64,000 nt of DNA. Origin: Oceanospirillales bacterium. GTDB taxonomy: Bacteria > Pseudomonadota > Gammaproteobacteria > Pseudomonadales > Balneatricaceae. The notes beneath the pieces were generated by a model. The model was not told the DNA's origin. It ran no database searches and saw only the letters and a program-made list of their open reading frames with translations. The stretch is from contig JAAEYW010000010.1 in NCBI GenBank assembly GCA_018223185.1, positions 62,001 through 126,000 on the forward strand, read 5' to 3'. The translations under genes were made by a program, and so were the position numbers. Below, piece by piece: positions 29,816-46,773 of the stretch (positions within the stretch are counted from its first letter, which is position 1; the number at the start of each line of letters is the position of its first letter).

Positions 29816-29992
29816 GAGTCTGATAGTGTCCTGTACGTGCCCGCCGCACGCCAATTAAATTAACGGCACTAACACGCAGGAATGAACAGAAACACGACAA
29901 CCGCAAGACATGAACCAGCTAACAAGCCAGAACAGAAACCACAGGAATGTGCTGCCGCTGCATTAGCCCTCCGCTATGCCGACTGAATAGTG

Positions 29993-30167
29993 TTTGAGGC
30001 CGGTCTCCGGACTTACGAGTGGAAAATCATCCCAACATTACGCCTTCCCATGTATGACCACAGTGGCTTTTGCAATGTCTTAACTCGATTACCGTTGCGG
30101 GGGCAGTGTTGGCATTGCCTGTTTAAACATTCGCGCTAAAAAACAGTACGCACCAACTTCCCGTTTA
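29993..30167 (-). ncRNA. Cobalamin (adenosylcobalamin) riboswitch
   Basis: Read on the minus strand, the conserved core elements appear in the right order: GGGAAGTTGGTGCG, then ACTGCCCCCGCAACGGTAAT, the B12-box AAGCCACTG, ATGGGAAGGCG and AAGTCCGGAGACCGGCC. These are the hallmark segments of the cobalamin riboswitch that shuts off uptake and synthesis genes when the cofactor is abundant. About 180 nt of leader then lead into btuB. All the genes from btuB to cobS would be governed by it. Confidence 0.93.
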
Positions 30168-30168
30168 A

Positions 30169-30190
30169 AATCCTGTTTTAAAACAGGATT
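30169..30190 (-). repeat. 22-bp perfect palindrome at the 5' end of the B12 leader
   Basis: AATCCTGTTTTAAAACAGGA followed by TT is its own reverse complement. It lies between the predicted promoter and the riboswitch core. As RNA it would make a 9-bp stem with a 4-nt loop at the 5' end of the leader; as DNA it could be a protein operator. Confidence 0.7.
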
Positions 30191-30206
30191 ACCAAAAACT
30201 GAGTGC

Positions 30207-30235
30207 ATTCTAGGGGGATGAATCAGGAGGGTCAA
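30207..30235 (-). promoter_or_regulatory. Sigma70-type promoter of the B12 operon
   Basis: On the minus strand, TTGACC (30235-30230) and TAGAAT (30212-30207) are separated by exactly 17 bp. Transcription would start near 30200, just before the palindrome and the riboswitch. Confidence 0.6.
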
Positions 30236-42605: not shown

Positions 42606-44090
42606 TCAGAGATTATCCAGCCCCTGCTCAACCATCGCTACAGCACGAAATATAGCGCGGCCTTTATTCATTGTTTCATCCCATTCAGAGCTTGGCACTG
42701 AGTCAGCGACAATGCCCGCGCCCGCCTGAATATGCAGCTGACCGTTTTCAATCACTGCGGTACGGATAGCGATCGCTGTATCCATGTTTCCATTCCAGGA
42801 AAGGTAACCGACCGCTCCACCATAAATACCGCGTTTAACCGGCTCCAGCTCATCAATGATCTCCATTGCCCGTACTTTAGGCGCACCACTTAGGGTGCCG
42901 GCCGGCAGTGTCGCACGCAGTACATCCATTACCGAAACATCTGGTTTCAGATGACCAATAACATTGGAGACGATATGCATCACATGGGAGTAGCGCTCTA
43001 CCACCATCTGAGCCGTCAGCTCTACTTTACCGATTTCGGCAACTCGTCCAACATCGTTGCGGCCCAGATCGATCAGCATCAGGTGCTCTGCAAGCTCTTT
43101 AGGGTCTGCCAGCAAATCTTTTTCCAGCGCCAGATCTTCTGTTTCAGTCTCGCCCCGGGGGCGGGTTCCGGCAATTGGCCGAACAGTCACTATATTATCT
43201 TCCACCCGCGCCAGGATCTCCGGAGAGGAACCAACCACATGATGATCCCCCAGATGCAAAACATACATATAGGGTGAAGGATTCAGACAGCGTAATGCAC
43301 GGTACAGATCCAGAGGGCTGCTGGTAAACGGGATTGTCATCCGTTGAGAGATGACCGTCTGCATCACATCTCCGGAGAGAATATACTCCTTGATGCGATC
43401 CACAGAGTCTTTAAACTGCTGTTCACCAAAGCTGGATTTAAACTCCGATTCAGACACTTCCCGACGCTCCGTCGGCTGAGTATCATGATATGGCACAGAA
43501 AATCGCAACCGGCTGACCAGCTCATCCAGACGTAACTGAGCCTGAGCCAGAGCATCTTCCTCACCGGGATCAGCATGACTGATGAGTATTAACTTACCAC
43601 TGAGGTTATCAAATACGACTACCTCGTCGGAGACCATCAGCAGAATATCCGGCGTACCGATTACGTCTTCGGGAATACTGTTTGCCAGTCGCTGCTCCAC
43701 ATAACGGACACAGTCATAACCGAAATAACCGACCAAGCCGCCATTAAAACGTGGCAGGCCTGGCAATTCAGCGGCCCGATAGCGCGCCTGAAACTGTTCA
43801 ACAAATTCAAGCGGATCAGCAACCTCTGACTGCTCTACAACCTCACCGTCGGTCTCAACCCTGACGCTGTAGCCATAAACTTTAAGGACTGTCCGGCAAG
43901 GCAATCCGATGATTGAGTATCGTCCCCATTTCTCGCCGCCTTCAACAGACTCTAACAGGTAGCTGTAGGGCTGATTCGCCAGTTTCATATAGGTGGAAAG
44001 GGGTGTATCCAGATCCGCTAGTACTTCACGAACCACAGGAATGCGATTGAAATTCTGAGCCGACAGCTCAGCAAATTGTTCAGGTGTCAT
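42606..44090 (-). CDS. trpE: Anthranilate synthase component I
   Basis: 494 residues of the chorismate-utilising family. It converts chorismate and ammonia (from TrpG) to anthranilate. N-terminal region with [20 protein letters not shown] (tryptophan feedback site), then a C-terminal catalytic half with [37 protein letters not shown] and [19 protein letters not shown]. Normal length. No tryptophan-rich leader peptide was found upstream. It lies downstream of rpe and gph as in Pseudomonas, with nhaA/nhaR set in between. Confidence 0.97.
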
Positions 44091-44372
44091 GGTCTGTTCT
44101 CATAACTACTCTGTAAAATCTGTTAACAGAGTTTTGAAATCTATTCCGGGCAGTTTTTATAGCACATATACCTCGCCCGGGCGCAATAACTGAAAAGCGG
44201 GGCTCAGTTACGCCATCGCCAGCGCTCTCCAACATAGAGGCCGCAGAGTTTTATCTCAATCGGGGATACCAAATCTGACACAATGTTTCCAGACAGTCGT
44301 TAATTCAGAGATCCAACCTTATAGCAGCCCTCTCTCTGAATCAACCGGGTCAGTTGCTCTGCAACTGTTTTT

Positions 44373-45596
44373 TTAAACTGACTGCCTGTTTACTTCGCCC
44401 TTTTCATCGACAGGGTCCTTATCGCGGACATTACGCAATGCAAAGGTGAGTATCAGATAGCCTGATACTGCGGATATAACTGAACCGGCAAGAATCGCCA
44501 AACGATCAGCCGCACCATAAAGATCCTCTACGCCTTCATAGGCCAGCGAATCAATAAACAGACTCATGGTAAAACCGATTCCCGTCAGCACTGAGACACC
44601 GTAGAGCATCAACCAGTTTGCGCCCTGTGGTTTTTCGGCCAGACCCAGTTTGATCCAGCACCAGGAAAACAGAAATACCCCCGCCTGCTTACCAATAACG
44701 AGACCCAGCAGAATTCCCAGAGGTACCGTGCTAAAAAGTTGCGAGAAAGAGATGCCCGACAGATCAACCCCCGCATTAACAAAGGCGAACAGAGGGATAA
44801 TTGCGAACGAGACCCATGGATGAAGCGCATGTTCAAGACTTTTCAGTGGCGACTCATCGTCCTCAGTATCTTTATTCGGGATCGCCAGAGCCAGCACCAC
44901 ACCCGCCAGTGTCGCATGGACACCGGATTTCAACACACTGACCCAGAGCACGACGCCGACAATCATGTAGGCAGCTACCCGCACCACCCCCATACGATTC
45001 ATCAGTACCAGCACACAGATCGCTGCCGCAGAGATCAATAATGAATGGGTCGCCAGATTCTCGGTATAAAACAGTGCAATCACAATAATGGCGCCCAGAT
45101 CATCCATTATCGCCAGCGCCATCAGAAAGAGTTTCAGAGAGGCCGGCACCCTGGGCCCTAGCAACGACAAGATGCCCAGCGCGAACGCGATATCGGTGGC
45201 AGTGGGTATCGCCCACCCTCGCATATCTGTTGCACTGCCATCCATATTAACCAGATAAAAAACCAGCGCCGGAACAGCCATGCCACCGATAGCCGCAATC
45301 CCCGGCAAACTGACCTGAGATAAACTTGACAGCTGGCCACCCTGAATCTCTCGTTTCAGTTCCAGACCCACCAGCATGAAAAACATCGCCATGAGGCCAT
45401 CGTTGACCCAGTGGAGTAGCGATTTTTCCAGTCCCAGCGAACCGATCCGCACCTCCCCCTTGATATGCCAGAACTCATAATATTCATTTGACCAGGGCGA
45501 ATTAGCAAAGATCATCGCCAGAACCATCGCCGCAATCAGCAAAATTCCAGTCGCCGCTTCAAACTGGAAAAACTCCCTGATTATTTTCTTCATCAT
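44373..45596 (-). CDS. nhaA: Na+/H+ antiporter NhaA
   Basis: 407 residues, 12 hydrophobic segments. The antiport signature with the two membrane aspartates is present (TATDIAFALGILSLLG and MALAIMDDLGAIIVIALFYT), as is the N-terminal LIAAMVLAMIFANSPW. It removes Na+ or Li+ in exchange for protons. Two ATGs lie side by side (45596 and 45593); the longer frame starts at GTG. There is no strong Shine-Dalgarno sequence. The start is only about 11 bp past a transcription terminator in the leader, and nhaR is divergent. Confidence 0.95.
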   Translation of the reverse strand: MMKKIIREFFQFEAATGILLIAAMVLAMIFANSPWSNEYYEFWHIKGEVRIGSLGLEKSLLHWVNDGLMAMFFMLVGLELKREIQGGQLSSLSQVSLPGIAAIGGMAVPALVFYLVNMDGSATDMRGWAIPTATDIAFALGILSLLGPRVPASLKLFLMALAIMDDLGAIIVIALFYTENLATHSLLISAAAICVLVLMNRMGVVRVAAYMIVGVVLWVSVLKSGVHATLAGVVLALAIPNKDTEDDESPLKSLEHALHPWVSFAIIPLFAFVNAGVDLSGISFSQLFSTVPLGILLGLVIGKQAGVFLFSWCWIKLGLAEKPQGANWLMLYGVSVLTGIGFTMSLFIDSLAYEGVEDLYGAADRLAILAGSVISAVSGYLILTFALRNVRDKDPVDEKGEVNRQSV

Positions 45597-45607
45597 AATT
45601 ACCACGC

Positions 45608-45753
45608 AAAAAAAACCCGGCCTTGGGCGCCGGGTGAATATTTGGATGAGAGTCCATTTACTTAAGACTGGAGGAGAGTCTTACAACTTACTTACATAAC
45701 AACCTATCAATAACTCGGTCACCGTGATCCGTAGGGGAGAACCTGAGGGATCA
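45608..45753 (-). promoter_or_regulatory. Structured 5' leader of nhaA ending in a terminator (candidate cation riboswitch)
   Basis: In transcript order: a hairpin TGATCC/GGATCA (45753-45725); a spacer containing GGTGACCGAGTTATTGATAG; a perfect 7-bp hairpin TAAGACT-CTCCTCC-AGTCTTA (45683-45663); a small hairpin TGGA-CTCTCA-TCCA (45656-45643); then an intrinsic terminator ACCCGGC/GCCGGGT plus eight T (45635-45608), only about 11 nt before the ATG. The design fits regulated termination. Known nhaA-I and nhaA-II RNAs sense Li+; I cannot match this sequence to either consensus. Confidence 0.6.
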
Positions 45754-45808
45754 TGACAAACCCGATAAGTCACAGTATAGTCAGCAAAATGACAAATAAA
45801 ATACGAAT

Positions 45809-45826
45809 TTACTAACAATATAGTAA
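45809..45826. promoter_or_regulatory. Candidate NhaR operator between nhaA and nhaR
   Basis: A perfect inverted repeat TTACTA-N6-TAGTAA in the divergent AT-rich gap, matching the general LysR T-N11-A pattern. It is 38 bp upstream of the first possible nhaR start. Confidence 0.45.
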
Positions 45827-45864
45827 GATTTATTCGAACTATATTAATGGCAACCGGTATCTCT

Positions 45865-46773
45865 ATGAATTTCAAACACCTGCGATACTTTCTCGTGGTT
45901 GCTCAGGAAGGCAGCATCAACAAGGCAAGTGAAAAACTGCACCTGACGCCGCAAACAATCAGTGGGCAGCTGAAACTGCTTGAACATGAGCTGGGCACCC
46001 CACTGTTCAGAAAGCGGGGCAGAAACCTGAAACTGACCAAAGCGGGTCAGCATGCGCTTAACTATGCAGAAGATATCTTTCTGCTGGGCGATGAACTCAA
46101 ACAGAGCATTCACAACCCGGTAAATCTCAAACAGCAGCGTTTCAACATTGGTATTGCCGATGTATTGCCTAAACTGATCACTTATCACCTGCTGGAACCC
46201 GCACTGAAACTTAATGATGCCAGCCGGCTTATCTGCGAAGAGGGACCGTTACCCAGTCTGCTGGCAGATCTGGCAACCCAGAAGCTTGACCTGGTGCTGG
46301 CAGACCGGCCACTGGATGCCAGCTTTCATATTCGGGGGTATAACCACCTGCTGGGTGAGTGTGGTCTGAGCTTTTTTGCCACCCGGGCTGTCGCGGCAAC
46401 CTACCGGGCACACTTTCCCGCTTCTCTTGAAGGAGCCCCGATGTTGATGCCCTCTGCCGATACTGAGCGGGGGATTGGACTGAAGCGCTGGTTTGAGCGA
46501 TATAAAATACGACCGGATATTAAGGTTGAGTGTGCCGACACCGCGCTTATTGAAGCATTTGGTCTGTCCGGAGCCGGTATTTTTTGTGCCCCCACCGTCA
46601 TTGAACAGCAGATGACCCGGCAATATGGCGTAGAGGTCATCGGTCGGATGGATGATATCCGTGAGCGCTTTTATGCCATATCACTGGAGCGCCGGGTGAG
46701 TCACCCCGGAGTGCTCGCAGTTTGTAATGCTGCGAGAATGGCGCTTTTCGAAGAGATAGATTCGACGCACTAG
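45865..46773 (+). CDS. nhaR: LysR-type activator NhaR
   Basis: 302 residues from the ATG at 45865 (MNFKHLRYFLVVAQEGSINK); an ATG six codons earlier (45847) is also possible. The HTH segment ASEKLHLTPQTISGQLKLLE and the following FNIGIADVLPKLITYHLLEP, plus GAGIFCAPTVIEQQ, match E. coli NhaR, the Na+-responsive activator of nhaA. Divergent placement next to nhaA supports the call. Confidence 0.92.
   Translation: MNFKHLRYFLVVAQEGSINKASEKLHLTPQTISGQLKLLEHELGTPLFRKRGRNLKLTKAGQHALNYAEDIFLLGDELKQSIHNPVNLKQQRFNIGIADVLPKLITYHLLEPALKLNDASRLICEEGPLPSLLADLATQKLDLVLADRPLDASFHIRGYNHLLGECGLSFFATRAVAATYRAHFPASLEGAPMLMPSADTERGIGLKRWFERYKIRPDIKVECADTALIEAFGLSGAGIFCAPTVIEQQMTRQYGVEVIGRMDDIRERFYAISLERRVSHPGVLAVCNAARMALFEEIDSTH

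Follow-up and report, generated by a model that had tools for sequence, protein, structure and literature searches.

In the window, the 64,000-nt stretch of DNA analysed here, nhaA and nhaR are read in opposite directions from a shared intergenic region. Gene nhaA (44373..45605, minus strand) encodes a Na+/H+ antiporter (NCBIfam TIGR00773 and NF007112; Pfam PF06965), for which an ATG at 45596 is a likelier start than position 45605; nhaR (45847..46773, plus strand) encodes a divergent LysR-type regulator recognized by the NCBIfam model NF008284 (NhaR) with 227.6 bits against a cut-off of 219. The minus strand between the two genes carries three hairpins and an intrinsic terminator with eight U, from which the first nhaA ATG is separated by 11 nt. 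Hairpin 1 (45725..45753) includes the C-rich segment UUCUCCCC, hairpin 2 (45664..45682) has CUCCUCC within its loop, hairpin 3 (UGGACUCUCAUCCA, 45643..45656) has the loop CUCUCA, and the terminator with its 8-U tract occupies 45608..45635, the stem running from 45635 to 45615 and the U-tract from 45615 to 45608. The coordinates and a terminator scan bear out what the first-pass annotation had described, namely three hairpins, CUCCUCC and CUCUCA loops, a terminator and a T-run about 11 nt before the ATG; the terminator before nhaA is the sole one that the scan finds in 45500-45900, where shuffles predict 0.3. A -10 box, TATACT, lies at 45774..45779 (minus strand) and recurs letter for letter in all 12 Amphritea loci and in 28 of the 29 loci aligned. 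Conservation in Amphritea (n=12) extends from just past TATACT to the U-tract, delimiting a putative small RNA gene of about 160 nt (45608..45767, minus strand) that starts upstream of the originally reported interval 45608..45753; its 5ˊ end near 45767 is placed by the spacing from the -10 box. The folding energy is ordinary (-52 kcal/mol versus -49.2 for shuffles, sd 4.4, z -0.63), and the case for a real RNA therefore rests on conservation and covariation.

The RNA is present in 12 of 17 Amphritea genomes, the window's own included, with a single match to model R2 in each. A BLAST comparison of the 211-nt region with 95 genomes (again including the window's own) gave E <= 9e-22 in 11 of the 16 other Amphritea genomes and 0.06 or worse in the remaining five. 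Among the eight loci with trpE downstream, the mean pairwise identity is 80% in the promoter, 78% in the first 70 nt of the RNA and 84% in its last 80 nt, while the 80 nt beyond the terminator reach 52.5% versus 48.8% for shuffled sequence; this drop from 78-84% to a nearly shuffled level indicates that conservation stops at the U-tract. The covariance analysis of relatives suggested in the first-pass annotation revealed a covarying RNA. The proposed structure pairs 93% of the cells in the 12 Amphritea sequences (48-52% in a control with the partners slid by one column), with two-sided changes in 11 cells and a covariation score of 0.176, each matched by none of 500 shuffles, which take no account of kinship among the sequences. 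Two further measures of covariation are weak, with four pairs showing two-sided changes (27 of 500 shuffles as high) and 12 further pair types (246 of 500 as high). The covariation sits in hairpin 1, where one pair has changed on both sides in six of the 12 sequences, plus one pair each in hairpin 2 (100% of cells paired; two-sided change in three of 12) and in the terminator, which is found in all 12 sequences with two outer pairs unformed in three. Hairpin 1 has a weak outer helix, with 81% pairing and no compensation, and hairpin 3 is invariant in 12 of 12 and hence uninformative on covariation. Loop letters are kept as well as stems, UGGACUCUCAUCCAA occurring in all 12 Amphritea sequences, and the invariant loop of hairpin 3 would suit a seed region. 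The central part of the RNA differs widely in length: L013-L017 and L019 have an extended, G/U-rich and repeat-like spacer (GGUUGUUAGUAAA in L015) separating hairpin 1 from hairpin 2, with RNA lengths of 166-264 nt. All 12 Amphritea sequences (L001 and L009-L019) have an AUG at one and the same place near the RNA 5ˊ end, with an MxxQVLP-like reading in several. A short ORF starting there was considered but not adopted; the AUG has a counterpart in 10 of 17 loci outside Amphritea and is absent from that place in seven, and the frames are broken by indels, differ in length and have no evident Shine-Dalgarno sequence.

Shorter relatives of the RNA occur elsewhere in the family. The 30 best NhaR loci among 116 family genomes comprise the 12 from Amphritea, 17 others with an RNA and one (L067) lacking it, which was excluded from all counts. 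The 17 non-Amphritea loci belong to genera g5 (8), g8 (4), g9 (4) and g16 (1), and their NhaR loci show 53-61% identity. The RNAs of these loci are 102-159 nt long, follow a -10 box that is TATACT in 16 and TATAAT in L059, end in a terminator with a U-tract (UCUUUUUUU in L064) and share a UCUC/C-rich segment. The motif UUAUCAC is invariant throughout alignment A2, which draws on g5, g8 and g9 and contains 15 of the 17 shorter RNAs (all but L054 and L064), and the Amphritea RNA has CUCUCAUCC at a similar place. Four further g16 loci contain the RNA with no adjoining nhaR, three of them with nhaA and one with trpE; the RNA is situated between gph and nhaA in G031 and between gph and trpE in G043, and the other two gph/RNA/nhaA loci (G115 and G121) were recognized by eye in an nhaA search. 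The covariance model R1, made from the 15 aligned RNAs and run with a strict filter against 390 genomes of the order, gave six matches at E <= 0.01, of which one is a known locus, two are new g16 loci and three (L070, L072 and L073, E 0.004-0.007) were taken for chance matches. R1 missed the window's own copy and is too insensitive to exclude the RNA in other families. R2 matched Amphritea only, plus one doubtful match, in L086, which was likewise taken for chance. In 20 further NhaR-like loci beyond the best 30 (L087-L106), judged by eye, the RNA was not seen. The shared place, promoter and short motifs suggest that the Amphritea RNA and the shorter RNAs are homologous.

The gene behind the RNA varies. 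Mapping of the Amphritea neighbourhoods with nhaA, nhaR, gph and trpE as probes placed nhaA downstream in three of the 12 loci, trpE in eight and a contig end in one (L018), so nhaA is absent behind the RNA in nine of 12 Amphritea loci (one of the nine being cut by the contig end), as it is in 13 of the 17 other nhaR-linked loci, where it comes next in four. Overall, 10 of the 33 loci, a total that includes the contig-cut one, have nhaA behind the RNA. No nhaA match at E <= 1e-60 was found in five of the 12 Amphritea genomes with the RNA, two of which are drafts of about 500 contigs, nor in any of the eight RNA-bearing g5 genomes. In all 10 nhaA-bearing loci the terminator stands between the promoter and nhaA, as the first-pass annotation had it, and directly before the gene, with 9-12 nt from U-tract to start in seven and 32, 36 and 45 nt in three; transcription of nhaA should thus pass the terminator, and so short a gap leaves little space for a further promoter, which makes read-through the simple inference. 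To judge from gene order, the RNA is what stays the same in a neighbourhood gph-(nhaR)-RNA-(nhaA), beyond which lies trpE or another gene; this picture partly mirrors the way the loci were discovered (29 through the RNA sequence or NhaR, two through R1 and two through nhaA). The sequences show the RNA to be independent of nhaA and, in g16, of nhaR.

Two operator-like boxes precede the -10 box on the minus strand. The promoter-proximal box AAATTCGTATTTTATTT (45794..45810) is TAAATTCGnATTTT-like and keeps a fixed distance to the -10 box in an ungapped alignment of 29 loci. The distal NhaR-like operator TTCGAATAAATCTTACTATATTGTTAGTAA (45809..45838) agrees in 11 of 13 letters with the Escherichia coli NhaR consensus, given as TCgaAAAAatCtA in the part of the published account covered here (PMC6307784), and has a counterpart at the same place in the other 28 loci. 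Across all 29 loci the distal box matches 9-12 of the 13 consensus letters at a fixed distance from the -10 box and is the best consensus match of the 72-nt stretch, with an opposite-strand reading in L063 and L065; taken individually, the match reaches a shuffle fraction of 0.05 or less in 18 of the 29 and lies above it in 11. Two boxes upstream of a divergent promoter are the usual layout of LysR-type activators, and NhaR in E. coli is a Na+/alkaline-pH regulator. With an operator-type box and a divergent NhaR gene, the RNA locus would, by sequence, count as a member of the NhaR regulon, and the neighbouring sodium-responsive NhaR probably switches the RNA gene on. NhaR orthologues from other families of the order have as their divergent neighbour an S30AE/hibernation-factor-like gene, a gene for a small protein or nhaA itself, and inspection by eye of 29 such loci found no such terminator in between and no sign of the RNA, suggesting that the small RNA occupies here the place that a protein gene has opposite NhaR elsewhere. 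Where an NhaR paralogue of this family is opposite nhaA (L089, L103, L104 and L182), the leader looks plain by eye. In L108 the gene divergent from NhaR (967-1380) matches Pfam PF02482 (S30AE/hibernation-factor-like), and the same arrangement was recognized by eye in L107, L112, L116, L117, L122 and L124; this divergence hints at a link of Na+ sensing to ribosome hibernation.

Since relatives with no nhaA at this place retain the RNA, we read the hairpins and the terminator as a small RNA gene of its own. It is likely, in our view, that the locus encodes a free-standing, trans-acting small RNA with C-rich loops, divergent from nhaR and activated by NhaR. The putative gene has the marks of a trans-acting small RNA, with its own promoter, an intrinsic terminator and conservation apart from that of its neighbours. 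For this gene we infer expression, activation by NhaR, Hfq binding, targets in trans and read-through. NhaR would occupy both boxes ahead of the TATACT promoter and activate transcription of an RNA (about 160 nt here and about 100-260 nt in relatives) whose 3ˊ end, a U-tail, would be set by its own intrinsic terminator. The C-rich segments UUCUCCCC, CUCCUCC and CUCUCAUCC could pair with Shine-Dalgarno regions of mRNAs and block their translation in trans, presumably with the assistance of Hfq. Hfq-bound small RNAs end in an intrinsic terminator with a U-tail; an hfq gene is present in the genome, and the U-tract at the window locus numbers eight. Where nhaA comes next, it would be read by polymerases that pass the terminator, one NhaR-controlled promoter thereby supplying both the small RNA and the nhaA mRNA. 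A bolder version, which we hold with less than even confidence, would see a sodium-responsive small RNA family under direct NhaR control in which the terminator splits the transcript into trans-acting RNA and nhaA mRNA. The constant output of NhaR would then be the RNA instead of the antiporter, and at this locus the RNA would outlive nhaA and, in g16, nhaR.

Pattern and duplex searches yielded no supported mRNA target. The complement of hairpin 3, TGGATGAGAG, has 34 matches near an ATG in 17 genomes, three of them the RNA locus itself, versus 23 for a reversed control, an unclear enrichment. Duplex energies between the RNA and the ribosome-binding site of the adjacent nhaA gave no consistent pairing at 10 loci; the one borderline value (0.045) comes from L164 (G031), where UUUGGGGGAG in the nhaA leader is opposite UCUCCCCCAA of its RNA. 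Nor was consistent pairing found with a second nhaA in seven genomes, two of the seven leaders scoring 0.02 with the RNA 5ˊ end and one 0.04 with hairpin 2. All other values among the 28 duplex comparisons were 0.14 or more.

The first-pass annotation had seen in these hairpins a leader of nhaA, possibly a new class of RNA akin to the Li+ and Na+ riboswitches, and had argued that a terminator so close to the start codon must fold conditionally. A cis-acting leader, that is a riboswitch or attenuator whose terminator opens on Na+, Li+ or pH, would agree with the structured RNA and with a U-tract lying 9-45 nt before the nhaA start in 10 loci, which leaves little room for a separate promoter; we nevertheless consider it quite unlikely, as most loci that have the RNA lack nhaA, genomes with no nhaA match at the threshold used above also retain it, and the leaders of nhaA genes opposite NhaR-type genes elsewhere are, by eye, plain. 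The constant association expected of a leader dedicated to nhaA is not seen. Moreover, none of the 29 sequences has an antiterminator pairing to the 5ˊ arm of the terminator at a fraction of 0.05 or less (lowest 0.17, mononucleotide shuffles), and since intrinsic terminators leak, conditional folding is not required and has no support in the anatomy. The nhaA-I (Li+-I) model RF03057 matched none of 10 genomes with nhaA at the locus, while its control in Caulobacter vibrioides was positive, and nhaA-I is not among the nine Rfam matches at E <= 10 for 45400-45850. Likewise, the nhaA-II (Li+-II) model RF03038 matched none of the 10 genomes, a result for which no positive control was obtained, and is absent from the same nine matches; Na+-I (DUF1646), a motif expected in the Rfam library, is found neither at gathering score nor at E <= 10. 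The nine weak matches (STnc50, rseX, NsiR1, anti-hemB and others) fall well short of gathering score and, in the alignments displayed, depend mainly on a terminator hairpin; they were set aside. No Rfam family reaches its gathering score in the window region, nor does any in 20 related loci except for a tRNA. The proposal of a new class thus holds in so far as the RNA is conserved, covarying and claimed by no Rfam family, and falls in so far as the class was to be dedicated to nhaA. A new riboswitch class is unlikely, and most likely the RNA represents a new small RNA family of a known sort.

Between a leader and a small RNA stands a dual-function RNA that would act in trans and whose read-through into nhaA would itself be regulated, by RNA structure, Hfq, Rho or translation, the terminator apportioning output to small RNA and nhaA mRNA. 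The layout with nhaA in four genera, together with retention of the RNA without nhaA, would suit such a dual role, for which the 5ˊ-end AUG of all 12 Amphritea sequences could be a regulatory start; against it, no alternative structure was found, simple leaky termination is enough, and the AUG opens frames that vary from 6 to 28 codons in Amphritea, has no clear Shine-Dalgarno sequence and is missing from that place in seven of the 17 other loci. We regard this dual role as rather unlikely. Very improbable is a functionless transcript, merely a terminator behind a conserved NhaR-regulated promoter: that no target was found and that the middle of the RNA is so variable in length would be in keeping with it, but conservation of the loops (UGGACUCUCAUCCAA in 12 of 12 Amphritea sequences and UUAUCAC in 15 of 15 from g5, g8 and g9) argues against it.

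The NhaR-activated small RNA favoured here has well-known parallels. In GcvA/GcvB and OxyR/OxyS of E. coli, a small RNA gene is divergent from, and activated by, a LysR-type regulator, ends in an intrinsic terminator and regulates in trans with Hfq. The present locus resembles GcvB and OxyS in having an RNA gene divergent from a LysR-type gene and an intrinsic terminator, with NhaR activation and Hfq binding as predictions; it differs from both systems in that the regulator is NhaR, nhaA is directly behind the terminator in some species and no Rfam family matches at gathering score. Small RNAs with C-rich anti-Shine-Dalgarno loops include LhrC of Listeria, AbcR of alphaproteobacteria and CcsR of Rhodobacter. 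Like these, the RNA has several C-rich stretches, in loops or single-stranded, that could base-pair with Shine-Dalgarno sequences, whereas they come from other phyla or classes and the RNA described here has no Rfam match. With the Li+-I (nhaA-I) and Li+-II (nhaA-II) riboswitches it shares a position upstream of nhaA (PMC9646797, in the part covered here); unlike them it leaves their models unmatched (for nhaA-II without a positive control), is kept without nhaA and has no antiterminator. In that same part of the paper, nhaA-I variants with terminators are named only from Deltaproteobacteria (PMC9646797). According to the covered part of another study, NhaR in E. coli raises CsrB and CsrC indirectly, via UvrY (PMC6307784); there as in our prediction NhaR is tied to small RNA levels, whereas here the small RNA gene is directly behind an NhaR-like operator. 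No report of the RNA was found in open-licence papers searched by titles and abstract openings. To our knowledge, no small RNA gene directly under an NhaR-like operator has been described before, none being apparent in the same literature at the level of titles and abstract openings.

If our reading is right, the RNA would define a new small RNA family, apparently the first directly under an NhaR-like operator, and would extend the control of Na+/alkaline stress in marine bacteria to post-transcriptional regulation. It would also illustrate that a terminator near a start codon, in reality the end of a small RNA gene, can be mistaken for part of a riboswitch, and the loci with and without nhaA and with and without nhaR would form a natural series for studying the conversion between small RNA and leader. 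Elsewhere in the window, a short frame between nhaA and trpE (44086-44375, minus strand) ends in GERWRWRN-stop with two Trp codons and probably encodes the leader peptide of a trp attenuator distinct from the small RNA, and an ordinary cobalamin riboswitch (RF00174, 109 bits) is located at 29981-30211 on the minus strand.
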